Assembly: GCA_018822105.1 (NCBI GenBank)
Contig: JAHJLB010000050.1
Span: 1-64,000, forward strand
Origin: Pseudomonadota bacterium
GTDB lineage: Bacteria > Desulfobacterota > Desulfovibrionia > Desulfovibrionales > Desulfovibrionaceae
Direction: 5' to 3'
DNA length: 64,000 nucleotides
Made by a program: the position numbers and the translations under genes. Shown here in pieces: positions 31,847 through 46,813 of the stretch. Positions within the stretch are counted from its first letter, which is position 1; each line of letters opens with the position of its first letter. The notes beneath the pieces are model-generated. The model had not been told where the DNA came from and made no database searches. It saw only the letters and a program-made list of their open reading frames with translations.

Positions 31847-32037
31847 GTGCTTCCCATCCCTGCCGGCAGACGCCGGTCCGCGTATTTTTCCATGTTCACT
31901 CCATAGCTCCCCTTCGCCTGCCGCGCAAGTGCCAAGGCTGCACTAATCGCTTCCGTGTTGCATGCGCAGGCGTGCAAGGATACGGTCAAAGCCAAGGCCT
32001 GGGCTTTCCCAGGCAAATCTCCAGCAAGGATGTCCAC

Positions 32038-32925
32038 ATGCCTTCAGACGATAATGGTTTTGCGCGACTCATGAAAGAGAAGCTGGCCGAAATCCGCGCC
32101 GTGGACATCCTGCCCGAGGAGCTGGTGGGGCTGGTGGAGCGGGTGCTGCCCGTGCAGCTCGGCGCCCGGGACAAGGCCCGCGTGACCCTGCCCGAGGCCT
32201 CCGGCTGCGCCACGGTGGAGGCCCTGTTCGCGGGCAGCCCCCTCATCCTGCGCGAGAACTTCCCCCACGACTTCGAGCAGGCCCTGGGGCTGTTTGAGAC
32301 CCTGCTGACCCTGCTGGCGGACAGCGGCGGCGCGGCGGGCCAGGCCGCGAAAACCCTGCGCGCGGCCCAGGCCGCGGGCGAGCTCGACCCGGCCCAGGTG
32401 CTGCGCGCCCTGCCTGCCGGAGACGAGACCCTGTTCGCGGCCTGGCGCCAGCGCCTGCCCGACAGCCCAAGGGCCCTGGATTTTCTGGCCGTCTCGTCCC
32501 TGTGGCCCGGCCTGAACGCCGCAGCCCGGGCCCTGGCCCCGCGCCTGCCCGAAAACATGCCCCACGACCAGGGGCACTGCCCGCTTTGCGGCAGCCTGCC
32601 CTACCTGACCCTGCTGCGCGAAAAGGAGGGCCTGCGCTTCGGGGCCTGTTCCTACTGCGGGCACGAATACCGCCTGCGGCGCATCAGCTGCCCCTACTGC
32701 GACGAGTCCGACACGGCCAAGCTCAGGCTCTTCCGCGTGGAGGAGTATCCGGGCGTGGCGGTCAGCGTCTGCGACACCTGCTCCATGTACGCCAAGACCC
32801 TGGACTTCCGCCAGCTGGGCAAGGACATGCTGCCGGCCCTGGACGACATGGCCACCGTGGCCCTGGACGTGCTGGCCCAGAGCCAGGGTTACAAGCGCCC
32901 CACCCTTTCGGCCTGGGGCTTTTAG
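32038..32925 (+). CDS. fdhE: Formate dehydrogenase accessory protein FdhE
   Basis: A 295-residue cytoplasmic chaperone of the FdhE family with four CxxC-type metal sites in the last third: CPLCGSLPYL, CSYCGHEYR, CPYCDE and CDTCSMYAKTLD. FdhE binds the catalytic subunit before Tat export. ATG 32038 has an AAGGA element about 8 bases upstream. It lies 9 kb from fdhAB and stands alone, followed by a 20-bp-stem hairpin. Confidence 0.9.
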   Translation: MPSDDNGFARLMKEKLAEIRAVDILPEELVGLVERVLPVQLGARDKARVTLPEASGCATVEALFAGSPLILRENFPHDFEQALGLFETLLTLLADSGGAAGQAAKTLRAAQAAGELDPAQVLRALPAGDETLFAAWRQRLPDSPRALDFLAVSSLWPGLNAAARALAPRLPENMPHDQGHCPLCGSLPYLTLLREKEGLRFGACSYCGHEYRLRRISCPYCDESDTAKLRLFRVEEYPGVAVSVCDTCSMYAKTLDFRQLGKDMLPALDDMATVALDVLAQSQGYKRPTLSAWGF

Positions 32926-32933
32926 GCCCCGCA

Positions 32934-32986
32934 CCAAGGGGCAAGTCCGGAGCCGGGCCTTCCCCCGCTCCGGACTTGCCCCTTGG
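32934..32986. terminator. 20-bp stem hairpin between convergent genes
   Basis: CCAAGGGGCAAGTCCGGAGC (32934-32953) pairs perfectly with 32967-32986 around a 13-base loop. It lies between the stops of fdhE and the small lipoprotein gene (33012, minus). There is no T-tract, so it may work as a bidirectional or Rho-assisted end. Confidence 0.65.
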
Positions 32987-33011
32987 CCGCGGCCCGGCCT
33001 GGACCAGCGGA

Positions 33012-33332
33012 CTACTTCACCGTCTTGCGGAAGGTCATGCCGCCCGTGCCCGGCATGTCCAGCTCCAGGGCGCCCGCGCCCAGGCGGACCTTGATGACGC
33101 CGCCCTGGCGCGTGTGCAGAAGCACCACCCCATTGCCCCGGGCCTCCCAGCGGAAGGGGGCCTCCTCCGCGCCCACGCAAAGCGCCCCGCCGCCATCGGG
33201 GCGCAGGGTGAGCCGCGCCGGGCCGGTGTCCACGCGTTCGCACTCATAGTCGCCCTCCAGGCCCTCCACAGGGCCCCTGCAGCCCGCAAGCAGCAGCGCA
33301 AGGGCCAGCGCAGGAAACACCCTCCGGCTCAT
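33012..33332 (-). CDS. Small lipoprotein of unknown function
   Basis: A 106-residue protein with a signal peptide ending in the lipobox LLLAGC, then a compact beta-rich domain (GDYECERVD...RLTLRPDGGGALCVG...GGMTFRKTV). The alternating strands resemble small MliC/META-like lipoproteins, but I cannot assign a family. It is the last gene of the seven-gene sensory operon and its ATG overlaps the stop of the MauE-like gene (ATGA), so its product is probably needed by the same periplasmic system. Confidence 0.7.
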   Translation of the reverse strand: MSRRVFPALALALLLAGCRGPVEGLEGDYECERVDTGPARLTLRPDGGGALCVGAEEAPFRWEARGNGVVLLHTRQGGVIKVRLGAGALELDMPGTGGMTFRKTVK

Positions 33333-33808
33333 GGTGCAATCTCCTTGAGTTTGCTCTGGTAGCGCCCTTCCAGCGCCAGCGGGGAATCAAAGAAGAAGAC
33401 GTGGACGGCCATGCCCAGCCAGATCAGGTCGCGCACCACGGTCATCCAGGTCATGCGCTCCTCCAGGGAGTGGAAGCAGCCGCAGTCGATGGGCGTCTCG
33501 CGCAGCAGGTTCAGGGCCACGGCCAGGCAGAAGACCGCCAGCAGCCCGGCCAGGATGGCGCTCACCGTGCGCACGCGCACCCCGGCCACCAGCATCGCCC
33601 CGCAGATGAGCTCCAGCCAGGGCAGCGCCAGGGCCACGGCGTTCACCGCCAGGGCGGGCACGATCTGGTAGCTGGCGATGGTCTCGGCGAACTCCGCCGC
33701 GTAGCCGATCTTGTAGACGCTGGCGTAGACGAAGACCCCGCCCAGATAGATCCGGAACCCCAGGGCCAGCCAGCGGCCCAGCGCATCGCGCCACAGGCCG
33801 CGTCTCAT
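33329..33808 (-). CDS. MauE/DoxX-like membrane protein
   Basis: A 159-residue four-helix inner-membrane protein with LGGVFVYASVYKIGYAAEFAETIASYQIVP, typical of the MauE/DoxX group, and a DCGCF cysteine motif in the C-terminal half. MauE proteins assist disulfide or cofactor formation in exported partners. The thioredoxin-like gene two positions upstream in the operon is a likely partner. Both ends overlap neighbours by ATGA. Confidence 0.75.
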   Translation of the reverse strand: MRRGLWRDALGRWLALGFRIYLGGVFVYASVYKIGYAAEFAETIASYQIVPALAVNAVALALPWLELICGAMLVAGVRVRTVSAILAGLLAVFCLAVALNLLRETPIDCGCFHSLEERMTWMTVVRDLIWLGMAVHVFFFDSPLALEGRYQSKLKEIAP

Positions 33809-35571
33809 GGCTCCACCGGATAGCCCCGGGCCACCCAGGCCGAAAGCCCGTCGTCGATGACCATGACGCGCTCGTGCTCGCGCGCCAGGAGCCTCGCCGC
33901 CACGTCCTCGTCCCAGCGGCGGCTGATGTTGCCGCCATAGACGATCAAGGGCGTGGACAGGGGCAGCTTGGCGAAGCGCATGATGTAGACCATGTCGAAC
34001 AGGGCCGGGGTCAGGCTCACCGCCCCGCGCACGCGCCGCTGCTCGAAAAAGGCCTGGGGCCTGGCGTCCACGATGACCGCGCCCTCGCTCTGCTGCAGCT
34101 CCCGCGCCTTCTGGGCCGTGATGCTGTGGGCCGGGGGCCGGCTCAGGTGCCCGGGCACCAGGGGCACGCCGTTCGGGCTGGCCAGGTTGAACAGAAAGCC
34201 CAGGAGCATGGACGCCAGGAGGATGACCCCGCAGTCCAGCCAGGAAAAGCGCCTGGAGCGCAGGCCCTCGGCGTGCAGGAAGGCTCGCACGCGCTCCCCG
34301 GCGCGCTCCAGCAGGGCGATGGTCTGTCGGGCCTCGGTGAGCTCGGCCACGGTGCGCGTGAGCTCCTCGTTCTGCCGCACCAGGCCGTCGTTCAAGGCCG
34401 TGATGGTGGAGAGGCGCCGCGCGCCCTGCACATAGCCCAGCAGGGTGGCCACCTGGGCGCGCAGCATCTGCGCATCCTCCTCCTCCAGCGCCTCGCCGGA
34501 GAGGGTCTCGCCCAGCACAAGCACGCCCTGCACCTCGCGGTCCAGGGCGAAGAACAGGGCGCAGGCCGGCTCAAAGGCCAGGCCGCAGCCCGCCAGCGCG
34601 TCCGCTGCAGCGGCCACGGGCTCCACGGTGAGCGGGGCCACGCTGCGCGCGCCGGTGGCGGCGAAGGCCTTGTACACCAGGACGTCCGCCGCGGCGAAGC
34701 CGGACAGCCCGGTGTCCGGCGCGCCACGGATGGCCAGGTCCACCCCGCGCCCGGCCCGGTCCAGCACCAGCGCCAGCCCGCTGCTCACGCTGAAGGCCCC
34801 GAGCATGGTCAAGAGGAAGCTGTCCAGGACCTTCCGCACCTCGTGCAGGTGCGCCAGCTCCCCGGCCAACTCGTTGATGGCCGCCAGCTGGTGCACGCGG
34901 CGGTCCAGGCGGCGCTGCGCCGTCTGCGAGGCGGCCAGGGTCTCGGTGAGGCGGTCGTTCTTGCGGCCCAGGTCCACGCTGAGCTGGCGGATGCTGCTGA
35001 CGGCCAGGGCCCCGCGCAAGGCGCCCATGAGGATGTAGAGCAGGCTCTGCAGCAGGTCCGCGGCGTCCTGGTGCAGGGCGGTCCCGCCCCCGGCCAAAAG
35101 CGGCCCCAGGGCCAAAAGCCCGCAATGCTCCTCGTCCACGGTGAAGCAGTACAGGATGTCCATGCCCCTGGGCAGCAGGCTGTCGCCCCCGGCCTGATCG
35201 CGCTGGATGGCCCGTATCTTGGAGACCTGGAAGTCGCCGTCCAGGTCGCGGTAGGGGAAATAGGCGTCGCAGATCTCGGGCAGGCGCTGCTCCAGAGCCT
35301 CGGCCTCCGCCGCGGGCAGCCCGCGCGAAAGCACCATCCCCTCGCAGGCCGCCGGGCGGGCCAGCACGGCCACGCCGCACCTGGCCCCCACAGGCCCCAT
35401 GGCCGTGAGCAGGAAGGTCTCCACGATCTTGCGCGGCTGCAGGATGCCGGAAAGCTCCTGGGCGGTCTCCAGCAAAACGCGCATGCCCAGGCGCTTGCGC
35501 TCCAGCTCCAGGCGCATGTCCTGCCCCACGTCGTCCGGGCCTACCGCCGAATACCCTGTGCCGCCTTCCAC
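33805..35571 (-). CDS. Tandem GAF-like sensor with membrane anchor and degenerate rhodanese domain
   Basis: A 588-residue protein. Residues about 30-190 and 235-385 are two GAF-like domains, linked and followed by coiled coils (about 195-235 and 395-425). One membrane helix follows (445-463), then a rhodanese-like domain (483-588) that would lie on the other side of the membrane. The rhodanese loop reads VYGGNISRR (544-552), with glycine where the sulfur-carrying cysteine belongs, so sulfurtransferase activity is not expected. The start is GTG 35571, one base after the upstream stop. I infer a signal- or redox-sensing scaffold; there is no kinase or cyclase output domain. Confidence 0.65.
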   Translation of the reverse strand: MEGGTGYSAVGPDDVGQDMRLELERKRLGMRVLLETAQELSGILQPRKIVETFLLTAMGPVGARCGVAVLARPAACEGMVLSRGLPAAEAEALEQRLPEICDAYFPYRDLDGDFQVSKIRAIQRDQAGGDSLLPRGMDILYCFTVDEEHCGLLALGPLLAGGGTALHQDAADLLQSLLYILMGALRGALAVSSIRQLSVDLGRKNDRLTETLAASQTAQRRLDRRVHQLAAINELAGELAHLHEVRKVLDSFLLTMLGAFSVSSGLALVLDRAGRGVDLAIRGAPDTGLSGFAAADVLVYKAFAATGARSVAPLTVEPVAAAADALAGCGLAFEPACALFFALDREVQGVLVLGETLSGEALEEEDAQMLRAQVATLLGYVQGARRLSTITALNDGLVRQNEELTRTVAELTEARQTIALLERAGERVRAFLHAEGLRSRRFSWLDCGVILLASMLLGFLFNLASPNGVPLVPGHLSRPPAHSITAQKARELQQSEGAVIVDARPQAFFEQRRVRGAVSLTPALFDMVYIMRFAKLPLSTPLIVYGGNISRRWDEDVAARLLAREHERVMVIDDGLSAWVARGYPVEP

Positions 35572-35572
35572 G

Positions 35573-36121
35573 CTACCGGATCGCCTCCTTGATGCGCGCC
35601 AGCATGGCCTCGACGTCCTCGTCCACGCCCAGGTGGGCGAAGAGGACCTTGCCCGCCGGGGTGACGAGCATGGTGAAGGGCGTCTTGGGCTCGTGCAGGA
35701 GCTTGTGGTTCTTGTAGTGCTCGTCCGCCACCAGGGGATATTTGTAGATGCCGTTCTGGCGCAGGCTCTGCACCTCCATGTCCGTGCCGCCGGCGGCCAG
35801 GCCGAGCATCAGCACCTCTCCGGCCTGGATGCGCCGGGCCAGGCGGGCGTAGAGGGCGTTGAAGGCGCGCACCTGCTTGGCGCACTCGGCGCAGTAGACG
35901 CCGATGACCTCCAGCACGATGACCTTGGCCTTGAGATCCTTCAGGCGGAAGGTCTTTTTCCCGGCCACGCCGAGTTCCTGCGCGTCCTGGGCGAAGGAGG
36001 GGGCCTTCAGGCTCAGGGCGGGCAGGGTCTGGCCGGGCACGGGCAGGGGCTCCGCCGCGAACAACGGCCCGGCGGCCAGGACAAGGGCGAGAAGCGCGGC
36101 TATGGGAAAGTGCATCCGCAT
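35573..36121 (-). CDS. Exported thioredoxin-like (TlpA-type) protein
   Basis: A 182-residue protein with a signal peptide ending near GPLFAAEP, then a thioredoxin fold with active site YCAEC (VIGVYCAECAKQVRAF) and the cis-proline TPFTMLV. The spacing C-A-E-C is unlike DsbA (CPHC) and fits TlpA/ResA-like reductases. It acts in the periplasm. It is followed one base after its stop by the GAF-rhodanese gene and sits 17 bases after the receiver-STAS gene, so a role in redox control of the operon's sensor is likely but inferred. Confidence 0.78.
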   Translation of the reverse strand: MRMHFPIAALLALVLAAGPLFAAEPLPVPGQTLPALSLKAPSFAQDAQELGVAGKKTFRLKDLKAKVIVLEVIGVYCAECAKQVRAFNALYARLARRIQAGEVLMLGLAAGGTDMEVQSLRQNGIYKYPLVADEHYKNHKLLHEPKTPFTMLVTPAGKVLFAHLGVDEDVEAMLARIKEAIR

Positions 36122-36138
36122 GATAGTCTCTCCTCGGC

Positions 36139-36855
36139 TCAGGGCGCGGCCAGGGCTTCGGCGTCGGTGTCGTAGGTCTCCACCAGCTTGGCGATGCCGA
36201 CGATTTCAAACACCTTGCGGAAGTTCTCGGACAACCCGGCGATGTACACCCGCTCGCTGCGCTCCCGCGCGTCCAGCAGCAGCTGGGTCAGAAGGGCCAG
36301 GCCGGCTCCGTTGGTGGAGGCGGACTCGTCGAAGTGCAGGATGATGCGCGGACGGCCAAGCTCGCGGGCGCGCTCCATGGCCCGGGCCAGAAAGGGCTCG
36401 GAGCGGGCCGTGACGCTGCCCCGGATGGTCAGGATGGCCGCGGCCGGGGTGTCCTCCACGCTGATCTCCTCGGCCTTGCTCTTGGCGATGGCGATGCGCT
36501 CCTCGGCGCGCTTCAGGGCCTGGCTCAAGGCCACGCGCTGCACGGGCTTGTTGATGAAGTCCGTGGCGTCCAGGTTCAGCGCCCGGATGGCCAGGTCCAT
36601 GTCCCCGTGGCCGGTGATGACGATGACCTCGGCGTGGGGGTCGATCTCCTTGATGCGCTTCAAGACCTCGATGCCGTCCATGACCGGCATCTTGATGTCC
36701 GTCAGGACCACGCTGGGCCGCTCGCGCTCGAAGGCTTCCAGGCCCTCGGCCCCGTTGGCCGCGGTGAGTATCTCGTAGCCGTAGGCCGCCAGAAGCAGCC
36801 GGAACATGTTCAAGGTCGGCTGCTCGTCGTCGATGACAAGAATTTTCCGCTCCAC
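36139..36855 (-). CDS. Response regulator with receiver and STAS domains
   Basis: A 238-residue protein. Residues 1-122 are a receiver domain with the acidic pair at 9-10, phospho-acceptor D53 (LTDIKMP) and lysine 103. Residues 138-230 are a STAS (anti-sigma-factor antagonist) domain; the phosphorylation loop reads FDESASTNGAG with S180/T181 at the regulatory position. There is no DNA-binding domain, so output is by protein partner switching. The gene lies 16 bases downstream of the histidine kinase, its probable partner. No anti-sigma factor or RsbT-like kinase is in the operon. Confidence 0.85.
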   Translation of the reverse strand: MERKILVIDDEQPTLNMFRLLLAAYGYEILTAANGAEGLEAFERERPSVVLTDIKMPVMDGIEVLKRIKEIDPHAEVIVITGHGDMDLAIRALNLDATDFINKPVQRVALSQALKRAEERIAIAKSKAEEISVEDTPAAAILTIRGSVTARSEPFLARAMERARELGRPRIILHFDESASTNGAGLALLTQLLLDARERSERVYIAGLSENFRKVFEIVGIAKLVETYDTDAEALAAP

Positions 36856-36871
36856 GCAAACACTCCTCTCG

Positions 36872-38866
36872 TTATTGCACTTGCGGGAAGAACAGACGGA
36901 AGGTGGTGCCCTTCCCCGGCTCGCTGTCGATGCGTATCTGGCCGCCGTAGTCCCGCACTATCCCGTAGGTGATGGCCAGGCCCAGGCCCATGCCCTGGCC
37001 GGTCTCCTTGGTGGTGAAGAAGGGCTCGAAGATCTTGTCGCGCACGCTGTCCGGGATGCCCACCCCGGAGTCGGAGACATCCACGGCCACGCCCCCGCCC
37101 TCGGCGCTGGTGCGGATGCCGATAAAGCGCCGGGCGTCCATGTCCGAGGCCTTGCTGGCCTCGTTGATGGCGTCGCGGGCGTTGGTCAGGAGGTTGAAGA
37201 AGACCTGCTGCAGACGGTTGTCCTGGACCAGGATGGGCGGCAGGTCGCCTCCGAGATCGAGGTTGAAGCGGATGTTGTCCAGCTCGAACTGGCGGCGCAC
37301 GATGGTCAGCACGCTGCCGATGGGCTTGTTCACGTCGATGCGCTCTTTCAGCATCTCGGCCTTGCGGCCGAAGGCCCGCAGGGTGTTGATGATCTCGGCG
37401 GCGCGGTCCACCTGGGCGCTGATCTCGAGCACCACCTCGTGGAACTGCTCCGGGGTGGCCGTGCGCCCCTGCTCCTCCATGAGGGCCAGGAACTCGCTGC
37501 CCATCTTGATGGCGTTGAGCGGCTGGTTCAGCTCATGGGCGATGCCCGCGCTCATCTCGCCCAGGGACTTCATCTTGCCCGCCTGGATGAGCTGGGCGTC
37601 CTTCTCGATCATCTCGGTGATGTCCGTGACGGCGATGATGATGGCGTGCCGCCCCCGGTAGGAGATGGGGCAGGCGTGGACGTTGACGTAGAAGGGCTTG
37701 TTGCCCTTTTTGTAGTGCAGCACCTTGGGGTGGTACAGGCAGCCGGTGCCGCCGCTCTTGCCCTCAAAGGTGATGAGGCAGTCGCTGCGGTTTTCCGGCC
37801 CCAGGGCCAGGTAGGACAGGCCCAGGAGCTCGTCCTTCTCGTAGCCATAGAGCTCCTGGGCGCGCGGGTTGGCGTCCACGATGCGGAAGTCCTCGCAGTC
37901 CACCACGAACACCGGGTCCGGGCCGGAGTCGAACAGCGAGCGGTACTTCTCCTCGCTCTCGCGCAGGCGCCTGCGGTAGAGCTTGATGCTCCAGACCATG
38001 TTGCGGAAGCTGTCGCCCAGCTGCACCACCTCGTCGCCCTGGCGCTTGCGGTAGAACACGCAGTTCTTGCAGGTGCGGTGGGCCGCGGCCTGCCGGGCCG
38101 ACTGGTCGAAGTGCCAGCAGGGCATCTCGGTGTTCACGTAGGCCGGGCACTCCGCGGGCCGCCAGTTCTGGTCCTCCTCCTGGAAGTCGAGGGAGATGTC
38201 GAAGTTCCCGCGCGAGAGCTCGTCGGAGATGCGCGTGAGCTTGGAGATGGGCCGGGTGATGTACTGGGTGATGCGGTTTGAGAGGAAGAAGATGATGCCG
38301 ATGATGGCCGAGATGAAGCCCAGGAAGGTCAGCCGCAGCTTGGAGATGAGGTTGTCGATGTGGCTCTTGGACAGGCCCACGTGCACGGTGCCGATGCGGT
38401 ACAGGCCCTCCTTGATGGGCACGGCGATGTCGTGGATGGACTCCTGCTCCACCGTGACCAGGCGCAGGCTGCGGCTCATGTTCTGGGGCACCTGGTTGGC
38501 CAGGCGCAGCTCGCTGGGAAAGGGCCGGGTCATGGTGTGGGCCAGCACTTCGCCGCCCTGGTCCGTGATGAAGATGTAGGAGATGAGGTTCTTGCGCTCG
38601 TGCAGGCGGGCCTCGTCAAAGATGAGCGAGAGCAGCTGCGGATAGTTCTTGTCCAGCATGTAGGTGCCGCCGCGTTCGGCGATGGAGTGGGCAATGGCGC
38701 TGCCGCGCATCTCCAGCTCGGCCGTGAGCGAGGACACGAGGATGTAGCGGGCCACAAAGGCGATGGCCACGCTGATCAAGAGCACCACGGCCAGGATGGA
38801 GCCGAAGATCTTGTTCTTCAGGCTGAGCGAGCCGTAGCGGCGCAGGGAGTCCTGCAAGACGCTCAT
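36872..38866 (-). CDS. Sensor histidine kinase with periplasmic domain, cysteine insert and PAS
   Basis: A 664-residue kinase: first helix 20-42, a periplasmic sensing domain (about 43-178), second helix 179-196, HAMP (197-230), then a cysteine-rich insert with C240, C250, C266 and C269. A PAS domain follows (about 303-420), then the HisKA dimer with H444 in GIAHELNQPL and the ATPase domain (VQDNRLQQVFFNLLTNARDA, SDSGVGIP, GLGLAIT). The cysteine insert (CPAY, PCWHF, CKNC) could hold an Fe-S cluster or zinc and so report redox state. ATG 38866 overlaps the stop of the periplasmic binding protein (ATGA), so the pair are probably a receptor and kinase. Confidence 0.9.
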   Translation of the reverse strand: MSVLQDSLRRYGSLSLKNKIFGSILAVVLLISVAIAFVARYILVSSLTAELEMRGSAIAHSIAERGGTYMLDKNYPQLLSLIFDEARLHERKNLISYIFITDQGGEVLAHTMTRPFPSELRLANQVPQNMSRSLRLVTVEQESIHDIAVPIKEGLYRIGTVHVGLSKSHIDNLISKLRLTFLGFISAIIGIIFFLSNRITQYITRPISKLTRISDELSRGNFDISLDFQEEDQNWRPAECPAYVNTEMPCWHFDQSARQAAAHRTCKNCVFYRKRQGDEVVQLGDSFRNMVWSIKLYRRRLRESEEKYRSLFDSGPDPVFVVDCEDFRIVDANPRAQELYGYEKDELLGLSYLALGPENRSDCLITFEGKSGGTGCLYHPKVLHYKKGNKPFYVNVHACPISYRGRHAIIIAVTDITEMIEKDAQLIQAGKMKSLGEMSAGIAHELNQPLNAIKMGSEFLALMEEQGRTATPEQFHEVVLEISAQVDRAAEIINTLRAFGRKAEMLKERIDVNKPIGSVLTIVRRQFELDNIRFNLDLGGDLPPILVQDNRLQQVFFNLLTNARDAINEASKASDMDARRFIGIRTSAEGGGVAVDVSDSGVGIPDSVRDKIFEPFFTTKETGQGMGLGLAITYGIVRDYGGQIRIDSEPGKGTTFRLFFPQVQ

Positions 38867-40155
38867 GGCCGCGCCCCCGCCACAGCCTTGGCCCCATGCC
38901 CGGAGCGGACCTCTTCCAGGGCCCGCAGCACCTCCGGCCAGTCGCTCACCAGCACGAAGCGGCCGTCCACCAGGCGGGTGAAGTACACGCGCTCCATGCC
39001 CTGGTGGTTGTCCGGCCCGAAGGAGATGACCGTGCCCGGGCCCAGGGTGTAGTCGCGGATGGACTCGATGGCGCTGATGAACCCGTCGCGGGTCAGGTCG
39101 CGGCCGGCCAGCTTCAGGCCCTCCACCAGGATGCGGGCGTTGACGTAGCCCTCCAGGCCCACGGAGTTGGGCTTGTCGTCGGGGAAGTACCGGGCCAAGA
39201 GGTGCACGTACTCCTCGACGCTGCCGAGCAGCTGGCGCGCGTCCGGGCCCTCGAAGGGGGGCACCACCTGGGACATGACCACCACCTGGCCGGAGGAGTC
39301 GCCCAGGCGGCGGGCCAGCTCCTCCGCGCCGACAAAGGACACCGTGTGGAAGATGGGCGTGAAGTGGCGCTCCGCCGCCAGCAGGATGAACTTGGCGCAG
39401 GGATCGTAGGTGCCGATCATGACCACGGCCTCGGCCCCGGACTTCTGGATCTTGGCCAGGCCCTCCTCCACGTCCAGGGTGCCGCGCACGTAAAAGCCGC
39501 GCGCCACGGGCTCCAGGCCGAACTCCTTCAGCGCCAGCTCCGTGCCGGTGAGGCCGTCGAAGCCGTAGGCGTCATACTGGTAGAACACCGCGATGCGCTT
39601 GAGCCCCAGGTCCTTGACCAGATGGCGCACCGCCGCCGCGGTCTCCTGGTAGTAGGAGGCGCGGATGTTGATGACATAGCGGTTGAAGGGCTCGCGCAGC
39701 GCGTTGGCGCCCGTGAACATGCCCAGAAGCGGGATGCGCGCGTCCTCCACCAGGGGCAGGATCTTCACCGTGGTGGGGGTGCCCACATAGCAGAACAGGG
39801 CGAAGACCTGATCCTGCACGATGAGCTTCTGGGTGTTGGCCAGGCAGCGCGGCGGGTCGTAGGAGTCGTCGTAGGCCGTAAGCTCGATCTGGCGGCCCCA
39901 GACCCCGCCCTGGTCGTTGATGTGCTTGAGGTAGGACAGGGCGCCGCGCAGGGTCTGGGTGCCCAGGTAGCTGGCGTGCCCGGACAGGGCCAGGGAGGAG
40001 CCCAGGGAGACCTTGTTTTCCGTGACGCCGGGGGTGCCGTGCTCAGGCGCGGCCTTCTCCCCCTGTGCGCCGCAGCCCGAAACCAGGAGAAGCGTCAGGA
40101 CCGCCAGCGAAATGCGCGCCAGAATCTTTCCCGCATGGCGTTTGCTGCTGACCAC
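38863..40155 (-). CDS. Branched-chain-amino-acid-type periplasmic binding lipoprotein (receptor)
   Basis: A ~430-residue lipoprotein with a signal peptide ending in LLLVSGC and a type I periplasmic binding fold (LivK/urea-binding group): VSLGSSLALSGHASYLGTQTLRGA, then GVWGRQIELTAYDDSYDP. No permease or ATPase genes follow; it is translationally coupled to a histidine kinase, so it is likely a sensor subunit and not a transport component. The start is uncertain: GTG 40155 or 40158 lie behind GGAGG (40164-40160), and a TTG at 40221 is also possible. The ligand is unknown. Confidence 0.8.
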   Translation of the reverse strand: MVSSKRHAGKILARISLAVLTLLLVSGCGAQGEKAAPEHGTPGVTENKVSLGSSLALSGHASYLGTQTLRGALSYLKHINDQGGVWGRQIELTAYDDSYDPPRCLANTQKLIVQDQVFALFCYVGTPTTVKILPLVEDARIPLLGMFTGANALREPFNRYVINIRASYYQETAAAVRHLVKDLGLKRIAVFYQYDAYGFDGLTGTELALKEFGLEPVARGFYVRGTLDVEEGLAKIQKSGAEAVVMIGTYDPCAKFILLAAERHFTPIFHTVSFVGAEELARRLGDSSGQVVVMSQVVPPFEGPDARQLLGSVEEYVHLLARYFPDDKPNSVGLEGYVNARILVEGLKLAGRDLTRDGFISAIESIRDYTLGPGTVISFGPDNHQGMERVYFTRLVDGRFVLVSDWPEVLRALEEVRSGHGAKAVAGARP

Positions 40156-40325
40156 CACACCTCCGGGCCGGATGCGCCGGCACGCCCTAGAGGACCGTTT
40201 TCGTAGGAAGGACAAGGCCAACGCTACCCCAGTTGCAGCGGCGCTTCAACATAAATCCCCATGCCACCCCCTGCGATGTAATACACCTCTTGCCAAAACT
40301 CGTTCGAGATGTCATCGGACGCAAC

Positions 40326-40937
40326 ATGCCGCACCTGAGCACGAACTCGCGCCGCCCTTGCCGGGCCCTGCCGCTGCTGCTGGCGCTGCTCCTGGCCCTG
40401 TGGACCGCCAGCGGCCAGGCCGCAGGCCCGCAGACCGGCTTCCCGGACCTGGCCCTGGACCTCGATTTGGCCAGCGCCACGGCCTTGGGCCTCGGCTCCG
40501 GAGGCCAGGCCAGGCTCTCGCGCCTGCCGGCCCAGGGCCTCATCGTGGTGCTCGTGAGCTATTTCTGCCCGCCCTGCCACAAGGAGGTGCCGCACATCAA
40601 GGACCTGGAGAGGCGCCTGCGCGAACGCGGCCTGTCCGGACGCATCCGCATGCTCGGCCTGGCCGTGGGCGACGACCAGGCCCTGGTGGAGCGCTTCCTG
40701 TCGCGGCATGGCGGCCTGCCCTTCCCCCTGCTGCCGGACCCATCCCTGGCCGCGCACAAGCGCCTGGGCAACCCCGTGGTGCCAACGCTTTACGCCGTGG
40801 CCAGCCAGGCCGGGAAGCTGCGCCTGCTGTCCCTGCACCAGGGCGAGTTCATGGAGGATCCGGACGAGTTCCTGGACGCCCTGCTGCGGGCCCTGCCCAC
40901 CTCCCCCGGCCCTGCGCCGGCGGCGCGCCCCAAATAA
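40326..40937 (+). CDS. Exported thioredoxin-like (TlpA-type) protein
   Basis: A 203-residue protein with a signal peptide ending near ASGQAAGP and a thioredoxin fold with active site CPPC in VSYFCPPCHKEVPHI, plus the cis-proline PVVPTLYAV. It resembles TlpA/ResA reductases. It is divergent from the sensory operon across about 170 bases and lies just upstream of the IS1595-like gene and fdhAB. A link to formate dehydrogenase maturation or to the sensory operon is possible but not shown. Start ATG 40326 comes soon after AACATG-type context with no strong ribosome site. Confidence 0.75.
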   Translation: MPHLSTNSRRPCRALPLLLALLLALWTASGQAAGPQTGFPDLALDLDLASATALGLGSGGQARLSRLPAQGLIVVLVSYFCPPCHKEVPHIKDLERRLRERGLSGRIRMLGLAVGDDQALVERFLSRHGGLPFPLLPDPSLAAHKRLGNPVVPTLYAVASQAGKLRLLSLHQGEFMEDPDEFLDALLRALPTSPGPAPAARPK

Positions 40938-40997
40938 TCATCGACTCAAGAACTGGCACCAGCTATGATGCAGGACGAAGCAGTCAGGGAGGCGGAC

Positions 40998-41846
40998 GTG
41001 GGCGAAGGAACGACGACAGAGGCCCGGGCCAGGGAGGCGCTCCTGCGGCGCTGCTGGCCCGACGGGACAAGGGCCTGCCCGCGCTGCTGCGCCGCAAGCC
41101 CCTATGCCCTGGCCGAAGGCCGCCTGCGCTGCGGGGCCTGCCGCTACACCTTCCACGACTTCACGGGCCGCTGGCTCAACCTGAGCGGGCTCTCCCCCGC
41201 GCAGTGGCTGGACCTGGCCCAGGCCTTCGCCCTGGAGGCCTCCACCCGCGAGGCCGCCCACGCCGCGGGCATCTCCTACAACACCGCCTTCAAGGCCCTC
41301 ACGGTGCTGCGCCTGGCCCTCCTGGCCCAGGGCGCCGACGCCCGGCAGCTCCTCGGCCCGCAGACAGGCCTGGACACCATGTTCACGGGCGGGAAGCTCT
41401 GCCCCGCTCCGGCGGAGCCCACCGGCAACTTCCCGGTCTACGGCATCCTGAGCCAGGGCCGGCGCGTCTTCGTCGACCTGGTGCCGGAGCTCACCGTCGA
41501 GAGCGTGCTGCACTTCAACCACAACTTCCACCTGCGCGTGGCGCGGCTGGGCAACATCCTGCTCACCGACCGCTACAAGACCTACGACGCCCTCGTCCTC
41601 TGCGGCGACGAGCGGCTGCCCTACCATTACCTGCTGCGCCACCAGGGCCACCCCTTCGCCGAAACCGGCTGCCCCTTCTGGATCTACGCCAGCCAGCGCC
41701 TGCGCCAGTTCAAGGGCCTCTCCACGCGGCGCTTCCCCATGTACCTGAAGGAGCTGGAGCTGCGCTACAACCGCCGGGGCGAGGATCTGCTGCCGCTGTT
41801 CCTGGACGCCCTGTGCGCACAGGTCCCCACCTCCCCCGCAGACTGA
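40998..41846 (+). CDS. IS1595/ISXO2-like transposase-related protein, possibly domesticated
   Basis: A 282-residue protein with an N-terminal zinc ribbon (CPRC...RCGACRYTF), a helix-turn-helix (AAHAAGISYNTAFKAL) and a C-terminal ISXO2-like DDE-type fold: LDTMF, GILSQGRRVFV, LLTDRYKTYDAL and KELELRYNRR. The third catalytic acidic residue is not obvious in FWIYASQRLRQFKG, where active members have an E-x-x-W type motif. I see no terminal inverted repeats or target duplications, and genes run closely on both sides. GTG 40998 has GGGAGG five bases upstream; an ATG at 40965 has none. It may be a dead transposase or a DNA-binding regulator of the fdh genes that follow. Confidence 0.6.
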   Translation: MGEGTTTEARAREALLRRCWPDGTRACPRCCAASPYALAEGRLRCGACRYTFHDFTGRWLNLSGLSPAQWLDLAQAFALEASTREAAHAAGISYNTAFKALTVLRLALLAQGADARQLLGPQTGLDTMFTGGKLCPAPAEPTGNFPVYGILSQGRRVFVDLVPELTVESVLHFNHNFHLRVARLGNILLTDRYKTYDALVLCGDERLPYHYLLRHQGHPFAETGCPFWIYASQRLRQFKGLSTRRFPMYLKELELRYNRRGEDLLPLFLDALCAQVPTSPAD

Positions 41847-42240: not shown

Positions 42241-45200
42241 ATGAAGCTTTCGCGCAGAGGGTTCCTCAAACTCTCCGCAGCAGCGGCCTTGAGCACGGCA
42301 TTCGGCGGCATCGGCTTCGCCCTGAAGCCCGCGGCCCTGGACCGCATCGCCATGCTCAAGCCCGACTGGAGCAAGCAGACCACCACCGCGTGCTGCTACT
42401 GCGCAGTAGGTTGCGGACTCATCGTCAACACGGCCCTTTCCGGCGCCAAGCGCGCCATCAACATCGAGGGCGACCCCGACCACCCCATCAACGAGGGCGC
42501 GCTGTGCGCCAAGGGCGCCAGCATCTACCAGCTGGCCGAGGGCACCCCCGGACAACCCAACCCGCGCCTGCAGAAGGTCATGTACCGCAAGCCCTACGGC
42601 ACCAAATGGGAAGCCAAAAGCTGGGACTGGGCGCTTGAGCGCATCGCCAAGAACATCAAGCGCGACCGCGACGCCACCTTTGTCACCAAGAATGCCAAGG
42701 GGCAGACCGTCAACCGCTGCGACGGCCTGGCCTCGGTCGGCTCCGCAGCCATGGACAACGAGGAATGCTGGGCCTACCAGGCGTTCCTTCGGTCCCTGGG
42801 CCTGGTGTACATAGAACACCAGGCGCGAATCTGACACAGCGCAACAGTAGCGGCTCTGGCAGAGTCGTTCGGACGCGGCGCGATGACCAATCACTGGATC
42901 GACCTGAAGAACAGTGATTGCATTCTTATCATGGGCAGCAACGCTGCCGAAAACCATCCCATCTCCTTCAAGTGGGTCACCAAGGCGCAGGAAAAGGGCG
43001 CCAAGGTCATCCATGTGGACCCCCGCTTCACCAGAACGAGCGCGAAATCCGACATCTACGCGCCCTTGCGCTCGGGTTCGGACATCGCGTTTTTGGGCGG
43101 CCTGATCAACTACATCCTTTCGAACGACCTTGCGTTCAAGGAATACGTGCTCAACGCCACCAACGCCTCCTTCATCGTCGGCAGCGACTTCGACTTCAAG
43201 GACGGCATGTTCAGCGGCTTTGACGAGGCCACGCACAAGTACGACAAGTCCAAGTGGAAGTTCGCCCTGGACGAGAAGGGTGTGCCCCAGCGCGACATGA
43301 CCCTGCAGAATCCCAGGTGCGTGTACCAGCTTCTGAAGAAGCACTACAGCCGCTACAGCGTCAAGAACGCCGTGGACATGACCGGCACCCCCGAGGACAA
43401 GCTGCTGGAGGTCTACAAGACCTATGCGGCCACCAACAAGCCCGACCGCGCCGGCACCGTCATGTACGCCATGGGCTGGACCCAGCACACCGTGGGCGTG
43501 CAGAACATCCGCTCCATGAGCATCGTGCAGATGCTCCTCGGCAACATGGGCGTGGCCGGCGGCGGCGTCAACGCCCTGCGCGGCGAGTCCAACGTGCAGG
43601 GCTCCACCGACCAGGCCCTGCTCTTCCACATCATCCCCGGCTACATGCCCACCCCGACCACGGCCCAGCCGGCCATTGCGGACTACCTCAAGCTGGTGGC
43701 CCCGGTGTCCAACGACCCCAAGAGCATGAACTGGAAGAAGCATTATCCCAAGTACGCCGTGAGCCTCATCAAGAGCTTCTACAAGAACGCCGAGCCCGCC
43801 GTGGGCTACGACTGGATGCCCAAGCTCGACGCCGGGCAGAACGCCTCCTGGCTGGTGCTCTTCGACGAGATGCTCAAGGGCAAGTTCAAGGGCTTCTTCG
43901 CCTGGGGCATGAACCCCGCGGTTTCCGGAGCCAACTCCAACAAGACCCGCGAGGGCCTGACCAAGCTCGACTGGCTGGTCAACGTCAACATCTTCGACAA
44001 CGAGACCGGCAGCTTCTGGCAGGGCCCGGGCATGGACCCCAAGAAGATCAAGACCGAGGTCTTCATGCTGCCCTGCTCGGTTTCCGTGGAGAAGGAAGGT
44101 TCCATCACCAACTCCGGGCGCTGGATGCAGTGGCGTCAGCAGGGTCCCAAGCCCCTGGGCGATTCCCGCCCGGACGGCGAGATCATGTTCGAGCTGGCCC
44201 AGAAGGTGCGCGAGCTGTACAAGAAGGAAGGCGGCGTGTTCCCCGAGCCGGTGCTCGGCCTGAACTGGGAGGACATGGGCGGCGAGCACGGCTTCGACGT
44301 GCACAAGACGGCGAAGCTCATCAACGGCTACTACCTGAAGGACGTCGAGGTGAAGCAGCCCGACGGCTCCATGAAGGTCTTCAAGGCCGGCACCCAGGTG
44401 GCCGCCTTCCCGGCCCTCCGTGACGACGGCAGCACCTGTTCCGGCAACTGGATCTACTGCGGCTCCTATGTGGACAGCGACCCGGCCAAGGGCAACCGCT
44501 CGGCCAAGCGCTCCAAGGAGCAGACCCCGGCCCAGGCGGCCGTTGGCCTGTTCCCCAACTGGTCCTGGTCCTGGCCGGTGAACCGCCGCGTCATCTACAA
44601 CCGCGCCAGCGTGGACGCCACGGGCAAGCCCTATGCCCCGCAGAAGCCCATCCTGGCTTGGAACGGCAAGGGCTGGGACATCGACGTGGTGGACGGCGGC
44701 GGAAACCCCGGCACCGTGCACCCGTTCATCATGCAGCAGCACGGCATGGCCGCGCTCTATGGCCCCGGCCTGAACGACGGCCCCTTCCCGGAGTACTACG
44801 AGCCACTGGACTGTCCGGTGAGCGAGCATCCCTACTCCAAGGTGCTGCACAACCCCACGGCGCTGACCTTCAAGGGCGAAAAACGGGCCGTGTGCGACCC
44901 GCGCTTCCCCTTCGTCTGCACCACCTACCGCGTCACCGAACACTGGCAGACCGGCCTCATGACCCGTTACCAGCCCTGGCTGCTTGAGGCCGAGCCCCAG
45001 ATGTTCTGCGAAATGAGCGAGGAACTCGCCCAGCTTCGCGGCATCAAGAACGGCGAGAAGGTCTGGCTGGAGAACGAGCGCGGCAAGCTCTGGGCCATCG
45101 CCATCGTGACCAAGCGCTTCAAGCCCTTCATCGTGCAGGGCAACATCGTCCATGAGGTGGGCATCCCCTGGCACTTCGGCTGGCGCTTCCCCAAGGACGG

Positions 45201-45306
45201 CGGCGACTCGGCCAACCTGCTCTCCCCGTCCGTGGGCGACCCCAACACCGGTATCCCTGAGACGAAGGCCTTCATGGTCAACGTCAGCAAGGCTAAGAAG
45301 GCCTAA
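42241..45306 (+). CDS. fdhA: Periplasmic formate dehydrogenase, catalytic selenoprotein subunit
   Basis: A 1,021-residue molybdopterin enzyme (Mo or W) that oxidises formate in the periplasm or reduces CO2. The Tat signal begins with SRRGFLK (RR at 5-6). A [4Fe-4S] site is formed by C51, C54, C58 and C89. Codon 198 is an in-frame TGA (42832-42834) in the ARI-U-HSATVA context where the family has selenocysteine; the same frame continues to 45306. A SECIS-like hairpin follows at 42851-42867. Late motifs such as RVTEHWQTG and WGMNPAV match FdnG/FdhA. Start ATG 42241 has CGGAGGCCAC. It is followed by fdhB; no gamma subunit is present, so electrons probably pass to cytochrome c3. Confidence 0.95.
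42851..42867 (+). promoter_or_regulatory. SECIS-like hairpin of fdhA
   Basis: CGGCTCT pairs with AGAGTCG (one G-U) around loop GGC. The loop begins 23 bases after the TGA at 42832-42834, with a G in first position, matching the usual distance and loop rule for bacterial selenocysteine insertion elements read by SelB. Confidence 0.75.
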
Positions 45307-45317
45307 GGAGGCACGTC

Positions 45318-46043
45318 ATGAGTGGTAAGAGCTTCTTCGTCGACCTGACGAAATGTACCGCCTGCCGTGGCTGCCAGGTTGCCTGCAAGCAATGGAAAAA
45401 GCTGCCCGGCGAAAAGACCAGGAACACCGGTTCGCACCAGAACCCGCCCGACCTCTCCGACGTCACCCTGCGCGTGGTGCGCTTCAGTGAGAAGGAGATC
45501 GGCGGCAAGATGCACTGGTTCTTCCTGCCCGACCAGTGCCGCCACTGTCTGGACGCCCCGTGCAAGTCCGGCGCGACCCTGCCCGATTCCATCATCGTGG
45601 ACCCGGACACCGGCGCCGTGATCTACAACGAGAAGACGGCCAAGGAGTCCGCGGAGGCCATCCGCTCCTCCTGCCCGTACAACATCCCGCGCGTGAACAA
45701 GAAGACCAAGGTCATCAGCAAATGCGACATGTGCAACGACCGCGTGAAGGCCGGAAAGCTTCCGGCCTGCGTGCAGTCCTGCCCCACCGGAACCATGAAC
45801 TTCGGGGACCGGGACGCCATGCTGGCCCTGGCCAAAAAGGCCCTGGCCGAGGCCAAGGCGAAGTATCCCGACGCCCAGCTGGTGGATGAGGAATCCGTCC
45901 GGGTCATCTTCCTGACCCAGGACAAGCCCGGCCTCTACGCCAAGAACCTCATGGCCGACGCAGGCCCCACAGGCCCCCGCCTGTACACCAGGCAGGAGGC
46001 CCTGGCCTCGTTGGCCAGGCCCTTCCGGGCCTTCCTGGGCTAG
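45318..46043 (+). CDS. fdhB: Formate dehydrogenase, iron-sulfur (beta) subunit
   Basis: A 241-residue ferredoxin-like subunit with four [4Fe-4S] motifs: CTACRGCQVACKQW, CRHCLDAPC, the CPYNIPR region, and CDMCNDRV with CVQSCPTGTMNFG. It lacks its own signal sequence and is expected to be carried across the membrane by the Tat signal of FdhA. ATG 45318 has AAGGAGG upstream and starts 11 bases after fdhA. There is no C-terminal membrane helix, unlike FdnH, which supports a soluble periplasmic FdhAB enzyme. Confidence 0.93.
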   Translation: MSGKSFFVDLTKCTACRGCQVACKQWKKLPGEKTRNTGSHQNPPDLSDVTLRVVRFSEKEIGGKMHWFFLPDQCRHCLDAPCKSGATLPDSIIVDPDTGAVIYNEKTAKESAEAIRSSCPYNIPRVNKKTKVISKCDMCNDRVKAGKLPACVQSCPTGTMNFGDRDAMLALAKKALAEAKAKYPDAQLVDEESVRVIFLTQDKPGLYAKNLMADAGPTGPRLYTRQEALASLARPFRAFLG

Positions 46044-46237: not shown

Positions 46238-46813
46238 ATGAACCGATCCGCCATGCATTTTTCCACCGCCCTGCTCCTGGCCCTGCTGCTGTTCTGCACC
46301 CCGGCCCTGGCCGCCAAGCTCAAGGCCGGAGACATCCTGCCAGACCTGGATGTCAAGGCCCAGCCCCTGCCCGCCGAGGCAGCCTACCTGGGGCTCAAGC
46401 CCGGCGTGCAGAGCTTCCGGCTCTCGCAGATCAAGGCCGAGGCCCTGCTGGTGGAGGTCTTCAGCATGTACTGCCCGCGCTGCCAGGCCGCCGCCCGGTC
46501 CGTGAACCAGGTCTTCGAGAGCCTGGCCGCCCTGCCCCAGGGCCAGAAGCTGAAGATGCTGGGCCTCGGCGCGGGCAACTCGGCCTACGAGGTGGACGTG
46601 TTCCGCAAGCAGTACGCCATTCCCCTGCCGCTGTTCCAGGATGGCGACTACGTCCTGCACAAGGCCTTCGGCAACGTCTACACCCCGACATACATGGTGC
46701 TCAAGCCGGCGCCCGGCGGGCACGGCTTTTTGGTGCTCCACCTTCAGGAAGGCCCCTTTGGCGACGGCCCGGCCTTCCTGGAGCAGATGCTGCGCGTCTC
46801 CGGCGTGCAGTAG
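46238..46813 (+). CDS. Exported thioredoxin-like protein (CPRC)
   Basis: A 191-residue protein with a signal peptide ending near TPALAAKL, then a thioredoxin fold with active site CPRC in FSMYCPRCQAAARS and the cis-proline TPTYMVL. The domain is close in layout to the thioredoxin-like gene of the sensory operon (35573-36121). It acts in the periplasm, perhaps as a reductase for the peroxiredoxin gene 25 bases downstream. ATG 46238 has AAGGAT upstream. Confidence 0.75.
   Translation: MNRSAMHFSTALLLALLLFCTPALAAKLKAGDILPDLDVKAQPLPAEAAYLGLKPGVQSFRLSQIKAEALLVEVFSMYCPRCQAAARSVNQVFESLAALPQGQKLKMLGLGAGNSAYEVDVFRKQYAIPLPLFQDGDYVLHKAFGNVYTPTYMVLKPAPGGHGFLVLHLQEGPFGDGPAFLEQMLRVSGVQ

Follow-up and report, generated by a model that had tools for sequence, protein, structure and literature searches.

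We read this seven-gene operon as an outside-sensing two-component module (module A) joined to an inside-out thiol-control module (module B), for which the periplasmic formate dehydrogenase FdhAB would be the likeliest client; we give this reading a probability of roughly 0.45. Among CO2-reducing enzymes the FdhAB of sulfate reducers is one of the foremost. A disulfide governs its activity, and we found no description of how the cell controls that bond. The locus offers concrete candidates for such control, genetically linked to fdhAB across the whole order Desulfovibrionales. A bolder proposal, which we regard as doubtful though worth stating, is that the operon represents a new kind of transmembrane signalling, in which swappable cytoplasmic sensors (a GAF pair driven by a receiver-STAS protein, or a cyclic-nucleotide-binding domain) act through a dead rhodanese on a MauE-TlpA relay that, in Desulfovibrionales, sets the disulfide by which the CO2-reducing formate dehydrogenase is protected from O2. 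Whatever the client, a pseudo-rhodanese gated by a sensor and fused to MauE would give cells a new means of controlling extracytoplasmic disulfide chemistry by internal signals. The open-access literature yielded no description of the seven-gene grouping, and only unrelated work on the combination of a rhodanese with MauE.

Gene order and the two modules

The seven open reading frames lie on the minus strand of the window (the whole stretch of 64,000 nucleotides that was analysed, from a genome of 3.17 Mb) and are packed as tightly as an earlier, sequence-only reading had claimed. The binding-protein and kinase genes overlap by four bases (ATGA), as do those for the GAF-rhodanese and MauE and for MauE and the small lipoprotein, while gaps of 16, 17 and one bases, computed from the coordinates, separate kinase from receiver-STAS, receiver-STAS from TlpA and TlpA from GAF-rhodanese, respectively. 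A ribosome-binding site, GGAGG, precedes the GTG start of the binding protein at 40155, and the strong inverted repeat beyond the lipoprotein gene is a convergent terminator that ends the operon (Table 1). Neither plasmid spread nor a defence system of note was found.

Table 1. Features of the operon and of the adjoining formate dehydrogenase locus (window coordinates).
Feature	Coordinates	Strand	Basis or remark
FdhE, formate dehydrogenase accessory protein	31972..32925	+	context
Strong inverted repeat	32933..32987		between lipoprotein and fdhE stops; fold -70.6 kcal/mol, z -6.4
Small lipoprotein, module B gene 4	33012..33332	-	lipobox C18; no Pfam family
MauE/DoxX-family 4-TM protein, module B gene 3	33329..33808	-	Pfam MauE 3.3e-25
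GAF-coil-GAF-coil-TM-rhodanese, module B gene 2	33805..35571	-	Pfam Rhodanese; AlphaFold model
TlpA/ResA-like secreted thiol-disulfide protein, module B gene 1	35573..36121	-	AhpC-TSA 9.9e-08
Receiver-STAS (REC-STAS), module A/B link	36139..36855	-	Pfam Response_reg + STAS
Histidine kinase, module A gene 2	36872..38866	-	sCache_3_2 - HAMP - Cys4 insert - PAS - HisKA - HATPase_c
Binding lipoprotein, module A gene 1	38863..40155	-	Peripla_BP_6 202 bits, 2.7e-59; 430 aa
Second secreted TlpA-like protein (CPPC), divergent from operon	40233..40937	+	true start probably ATG near 40326
IS1595-like single-copy protein, conserved beside fdhA	40965..41846	+	context
fdhA, selenocysteine (UGA 198) formate dehydrogenase alpha subunit	42241..45306	+	SECIS_3 match at UGA, below curated cut-off
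fdhB, iron-sulfur beta subunit	45318..46043	+	sequence; one cluster of fdhB genes, in 20 loci
Third secreted TlpA-like protein (CPRC), recurs at other fdh loci	46238..46813	+	context

Relatives of the GAF-rhodanese were sought in 297 genomes of Desulfovibrionales, where the genome draws are samples and the gene calls mechanical, and a gene-level comparison was made of 44 loci. The exact seven-gene order recurs in 31 of these 44 loci, one further locus has the same order with an extra TlpA gene, and conservation extends over tens of genera and several families. Seven of the 44 hold only receiver-STAS, TlpA, GAF-rhodanese, MauE and lipoprotein genes, and in two others (L064 and L068) fdhAB separates the two halves, each of which has its own receiver-STAS gene; in L068 the second copy lies at the edge of the locus. 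Wherever module B is detached from module A, in nine loci, its own receiver-STAS is still the first gene, so the receiver-STAS protein goes with both modules.

The two modules differ in their distribution. Module A (binding protein, kinase and receiver-STAS) also occurs alone and is far commoner than module B (TlpA, GAF-rhodanese, MauE and lipoprotein), which within Desulfovibrionales is hardly ever found without module A. The binding-protein gene is present in 160 of the 297 genomes and the GAF-rhodanese gene in 57, and 55 of those 57 have both, where the background frequency of the binding protein is 160/297 (hypergeometric P 5e-15). The kinase gene is followed by receiver-STAS in 55 of 57 loci.

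From binding protein to thiol-disulfide proteins

The binding protein, which the sequence-only reading had found to be without transporter genes, is a partner of the sensor rather than a transporter component: no permease and ATPase genes stand beside it, and the kinase is the next gene in 55 of 55 loci. Besides its lipobox cysteine (C28), the protein has an invariant C104 (54/54) and a near-invariant C253 (51/54); its closest solved relatives, 4kv7 and 3lop, gave no answer as to the ligand. Sensor kinases assisted by binding proteins are known from the LuxPQ and TorT/TorS type, and the likeness is that a periplasmic binding protein is encoded with, and likely acts on, the kinase. In contrast to those systems, the operon pairs a Peripla_BP_6 lipoprotein with an sCache_3_2 kinase bearing a Cys4 insert, and its output is a receiver-STAS protein without a DNA-binding domain. 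A second binding-protein gene of the same genome, 37% identical, is found in one locus (L069; G000:C33, 69975-71099), where it is followed by a weak kinase match and possibly forms a parallel sensory pair.

The residues of a two-component pair are conserved throughout, with the phospho-histidine H444 of the HisKA/HATPase_c kinase invariant (56/56) and the phospho-acceptor D53 of the receiver likewise (43/43 and 17/17, or 60/60). The HAMP match of the kinase is below the Pfam cut-off. The cysteine insert that had been picked out in the kinase consists of C240, C250, C266 and C269, kept in all but two gapped relatives; its pattern, CPA...PCW...C..C directly after HAMP (window 38050-38150), makes it a candidate metal or Fe-S site. 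The sCache_3_2 domain had no sequence match to solved structures. Sensors of the sCache_3_2 type for formate or carboxylates include Atu0526, DcuS and CitA. In Atu0526, R115 is the ligand arginine (PMC8698456). Formate sensing by the sCache domain in the manner of Atu0526 or PacF received no support, a formal alignment being impossible. Compared by eye with DcuS, the kinase domain appears to have no arginine at the DcuS arginine positions.

The central protein of module B is laid out as a cytoplasmic GAF-coil-GAF-coil region, one transmembrane helix (about 444-464) and a periplasmic, Cys-less rhodanese (482-581). Although Pfam calls no GAF domain in the window protein, the earlier GAF-GAF assignment is borne out by GAF_3 matches in six of 37 relatives and by the AlphaFold model (mean pLDDT 86, pTM 0.50), which resembles phytochromes, phosphodiesterases and other proteins of GAF-coil-GAF build. 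The orientation that we give to this protein and to MauE is inferred from charge, with an RSRR motif ahead of the transmembrane helix, and from the position of the CGC loop between the MauE segments. At the position of the catalytic cysteine the rhodanese has glycine in all 64 sequences (44/44 at operon loci and 20/20 outside Desulfovibrionales), and a role as a sulfurtransferase is rejected on this ground.

Separate rhodanese genes with a transmembrane segment that adjoin MauE keep the catalytic cysteine, clearly so in ten of the 11 aligned, the eleventh alignment being shifted. Such pairs, with the catalytic cysteine in the rhodanese and a CGCF motif in MauE (L211-L224), are widespread in Desulfovibrionaceae and to our knowledge undescribed; they show the same adjacency as the operon, whereas their rhodaneses retain the cysteine and carry neither a GAF nor a cyclic-nucleotide-binding domain.

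A profile of the GAF-rhodanese was used to find relatives outside Desulfovibrionales. Four genomes of other families (L255-L258) have the exact seven-gene order, which, together with its recurrence within Desulfovibrionales, upholds the claim of a single unit. About fifteen genomes carry a shorter relative in which a cyclic-nucleotide-binding domain (Pfam cNMP_binding, 76-93 bits) makes up the cytoplasmic half, with MauE as the next gene, the lipoprotein too in most cases and TlpA often in front. In five loci (L270-L274) the cNMP domain, transmembrane helix, Cys-less rhodanese and MauE form a single protein of 479-492 aa. Nothing speaks more strongly for the pseudo-rhodanese as a signalling arm joining the cytoplasm to MauE than this swap of sensor domains and the natural fusion to MauE, and the fusions predict an interface between the rhodanese and MauE. 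In the loci examined outside Desulfovibrionales no fdhA was found near the whole operon or module B, so that the use of the device extends beyond formate metabolism.

The remaining module B proteins are those of a secreted thiol-disulfide system. TlpA has a signal peptide, read from the sequence, a thioredoxin fold with ResA matches in the PDB, and a C77-x-x-C80 motif whose CxxC is present in 43 of 43 sequences. MauE scores 89.3 bits against a cut-off of 27 (PF07291), has both cysteines of C109-G-C111 in 43 of 43 sequences and shows four hydropathy peaks, with the CGC loop, predicted to be periplasmic, between hydrophobic segments three and four. The small lipoprotein, whose lipobox cysteine is conserved in 42 of 42, is predicted to be an 8-stranded β-barrel (AlphaFold mean pLDDT 84.8), and its fold search returned weak YedD/NlpE-like matches, none of them significant. 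The claim of periplasmic thiol chemistry is supported by the invariant redox cysteines of TlpA and MauE and fails for the rhodanese as a working redox or sulfur-transfer enzyme. Pairs of MauE and TlpA are familiar from methylamine dehydrogenase maturation, and in the MauE/MauD system of methylamine utilisation (DoxX/MauE family, PF07291) a 4-TM MauE adjoins a TlpA-like secreted thiol-disulfide protein, as here. The operon MauE differs in being tied, and in places fused, to a transmembrane pseudo-rhodanese with a cytoplasmic sensor domain, and in its presumed client.

Proposed mechanism and alternatives

We tentatively propose the following sequence of events. The binding lipoprotein, in its ligand-bound or its free form, would act on the kinase through its periplasmic sCache domain, and the kinase would then pass phosphate to D53 of the receiver-STAS protein. 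Once phosphorylated, receiver-STAS may bind the cytoplasmic GAF and coiled-coil part of the membrane protein, and the signal could then cross the single transmembrane helix to the Cys-less rhodanese, which would serve as a regulatory arm on MauE. Through its periplasmic CGC motif MauE, probably exchanging electrons with the quinone pool, would set the redox state of TlpA, and the CxxC motif of TlpA would in turn set the disulfide state of a periplasmic client, presumably assisted by the small lipoprotein. In Desulfovibrionales the likeliest such client would be FdhAB, by way of a disulfide corresponding to C845-C872.

More prosaic explanations were weighed against this scheme. Each of the separate domains is common, and the genes might be ordinary ones grouped by chance, or an ABC uptake operon minus its permeases; the conservation of the order in tens of genera, with the kinase always after the binding protein, makes this scarcely credible, and the neighbourhood comparison that the sequence-only reading had called for refutes a chance grouping. 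The idea of a single device set out in that reading survives, although it missed both the division into two modules and the link to the formate dehydrogenase locus. Its further suggestion, that receiver-STAS is an anti-sigma-factor antagonist in a partner switch based on serine phosphorylation, fared worse. The STAS domain exceeds its Pfam cut-off, shares its fold with the SpoIIAA/RsbV antagonists (e.g., TM1442, 1sbo; E 0.0017), and HATPase_c_2 matches occur in the genome. However, within its S-x-N-G-A-G motif the position of the phosphorylated Ser59 of TM1442 is glycine in 45 of 45 Desulfovibrionales sequences, the domain is fused to a receiver, and the genome has no match to a SpoIIE-type PP2C phosphatase while control genomes do. 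The 11 HATPase_c_2 matches all fall in open frames of 368-1440 aa, none of them a small RsbW-like gene. A classical partner switch is rejected on the evidence of the glycine and the missing phosphatase, and we consider this explanation very improbable; for the same two reasons there is little prospect of finding an anti-sigma partner.

Two other explanations accept the anatomy of the operon and differ as to what module B does. It could work from the outside in, as a periplasmic redox sensor in which TlpA and MauE report the thiol or quinone state to the pseudo-rhodanese and thence, through the transmembrane helix and GAF domains, to receiver-STAS, which would integrate this report with the signal from the kinase in controlling fdhAB. 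The same anatomy and conservation would fit, and a receiver-STAS gene always accompanies module B in Desulfovibrionales; the cNMP-type modules, however, have a cytoplasmic ligand-binding domain and no such two-component genes adjoining, which suits an input from inside better than an output, and we think this direction unlikely. Alternatively, module A might regulate fdhAB while module B, simply transcribed along with it, is a MauE/TlpA disulfide system that matures periplasmic enzymes outside the control of module A. Such a division of labour is what the many genomes with module A alone beside fdhAB would lead one to expect, and MauE/TlpA pairs have a known maturation role. Against it stand the retention of the order over several families, the receiver-STAS gene that detached module B keeps and the near confinement of module B, within Desulfovibrionales, to genomes with module A, and we think it likewise unlikely.

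Formate dehydrogenase as candidate client

Across 45 loci the neighbours include fdhA in 25, the IS1595-like gene in 23, fdhB in 20 and fdhE in 15, and FdhD, MoaA and MobA-like genes, named from their sequences, recur as well. The binding-protein gene lies at most 16 kb from fdhA in at least 60 of 105 genomes, against about one expected. In twenty further loci, mostly without module B, the binding protein, kinase and receiver-STAS are beside fdhAB in nearly all, and in many cases module A follows immediately after fdhB in the same orientation; two of these loci come from the genus closest to D. vulgaris, with an FdhA about 91% identical to 6sdr. Given this linkage and these neighbours, module A is best understood as the sensing apparatus that serves the periplasmic formate dehydrogenase.

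In D. vulgaris FdhAB the C845-C872 disulfide turns the enzyme off and protects it from O2, and its reduction restores activity (PMC11323313, PMC13397495); we found no cellular reductant or oxidant of this allosteric switch named in these two papers. In the window FdhA the two cysteines are present with identical spacing (C858/C885), and module B is a candidate redox partner within the locus. The pair is present in 25 of 26 FdhA sequences linked to module B and in 16 of 18 without it, so that the two do not covary, and the pair is rejected as a co-varying target of module B; no other cysteine of FdhA or FdhB specific to module B genomes was found. Among loci not picked for module B, TlpA-like neighbours accompany, by our count, 10 of 26 FdhA genes with the pair and 3 of 14 without, which is no clear enrichment. 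Since the genus closest to D. vulgaris, the source of the switch discovery, is without module B, this module cannot be the sole agent for the FdhA disulfide. FdhAB as the likeliest client in Desulfovibrionales is a proposal with which the sequences are consistent and which they do not demonstrate. In genomes that lack module B, its task could fall to other secreted TlpA-like genes at fdh loci.

Some genera (L102-L107, L139, L152, L155 and others) have an FdhA in which the switch cysteines are replaced (C-A or S-A for C-C), and none of these has module B. The two TlpA-like genes with CPPC and CPRC motifs flank fdhAB in the window, and other genera too have one or other of them at their fdh loci (L189-L208); at some fdh loci a peroxiredoxin-like gene lies beside the TlpA-like gene. 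It seems that fdh loci generally include thiol-redox proteins.

The IS1595-like gene is single-copy and, in the 49 loci examined, lies near fdhA or the operon. Its product, a transposase relative, keeps the cysteines of the zinc ribbon but not the DDE residues that one would expect (D137 is present in 16/49, D202 in 32/49). This pattern suggests that the protein has probably been domesticated, perhaps as a regulator of fdhAB.
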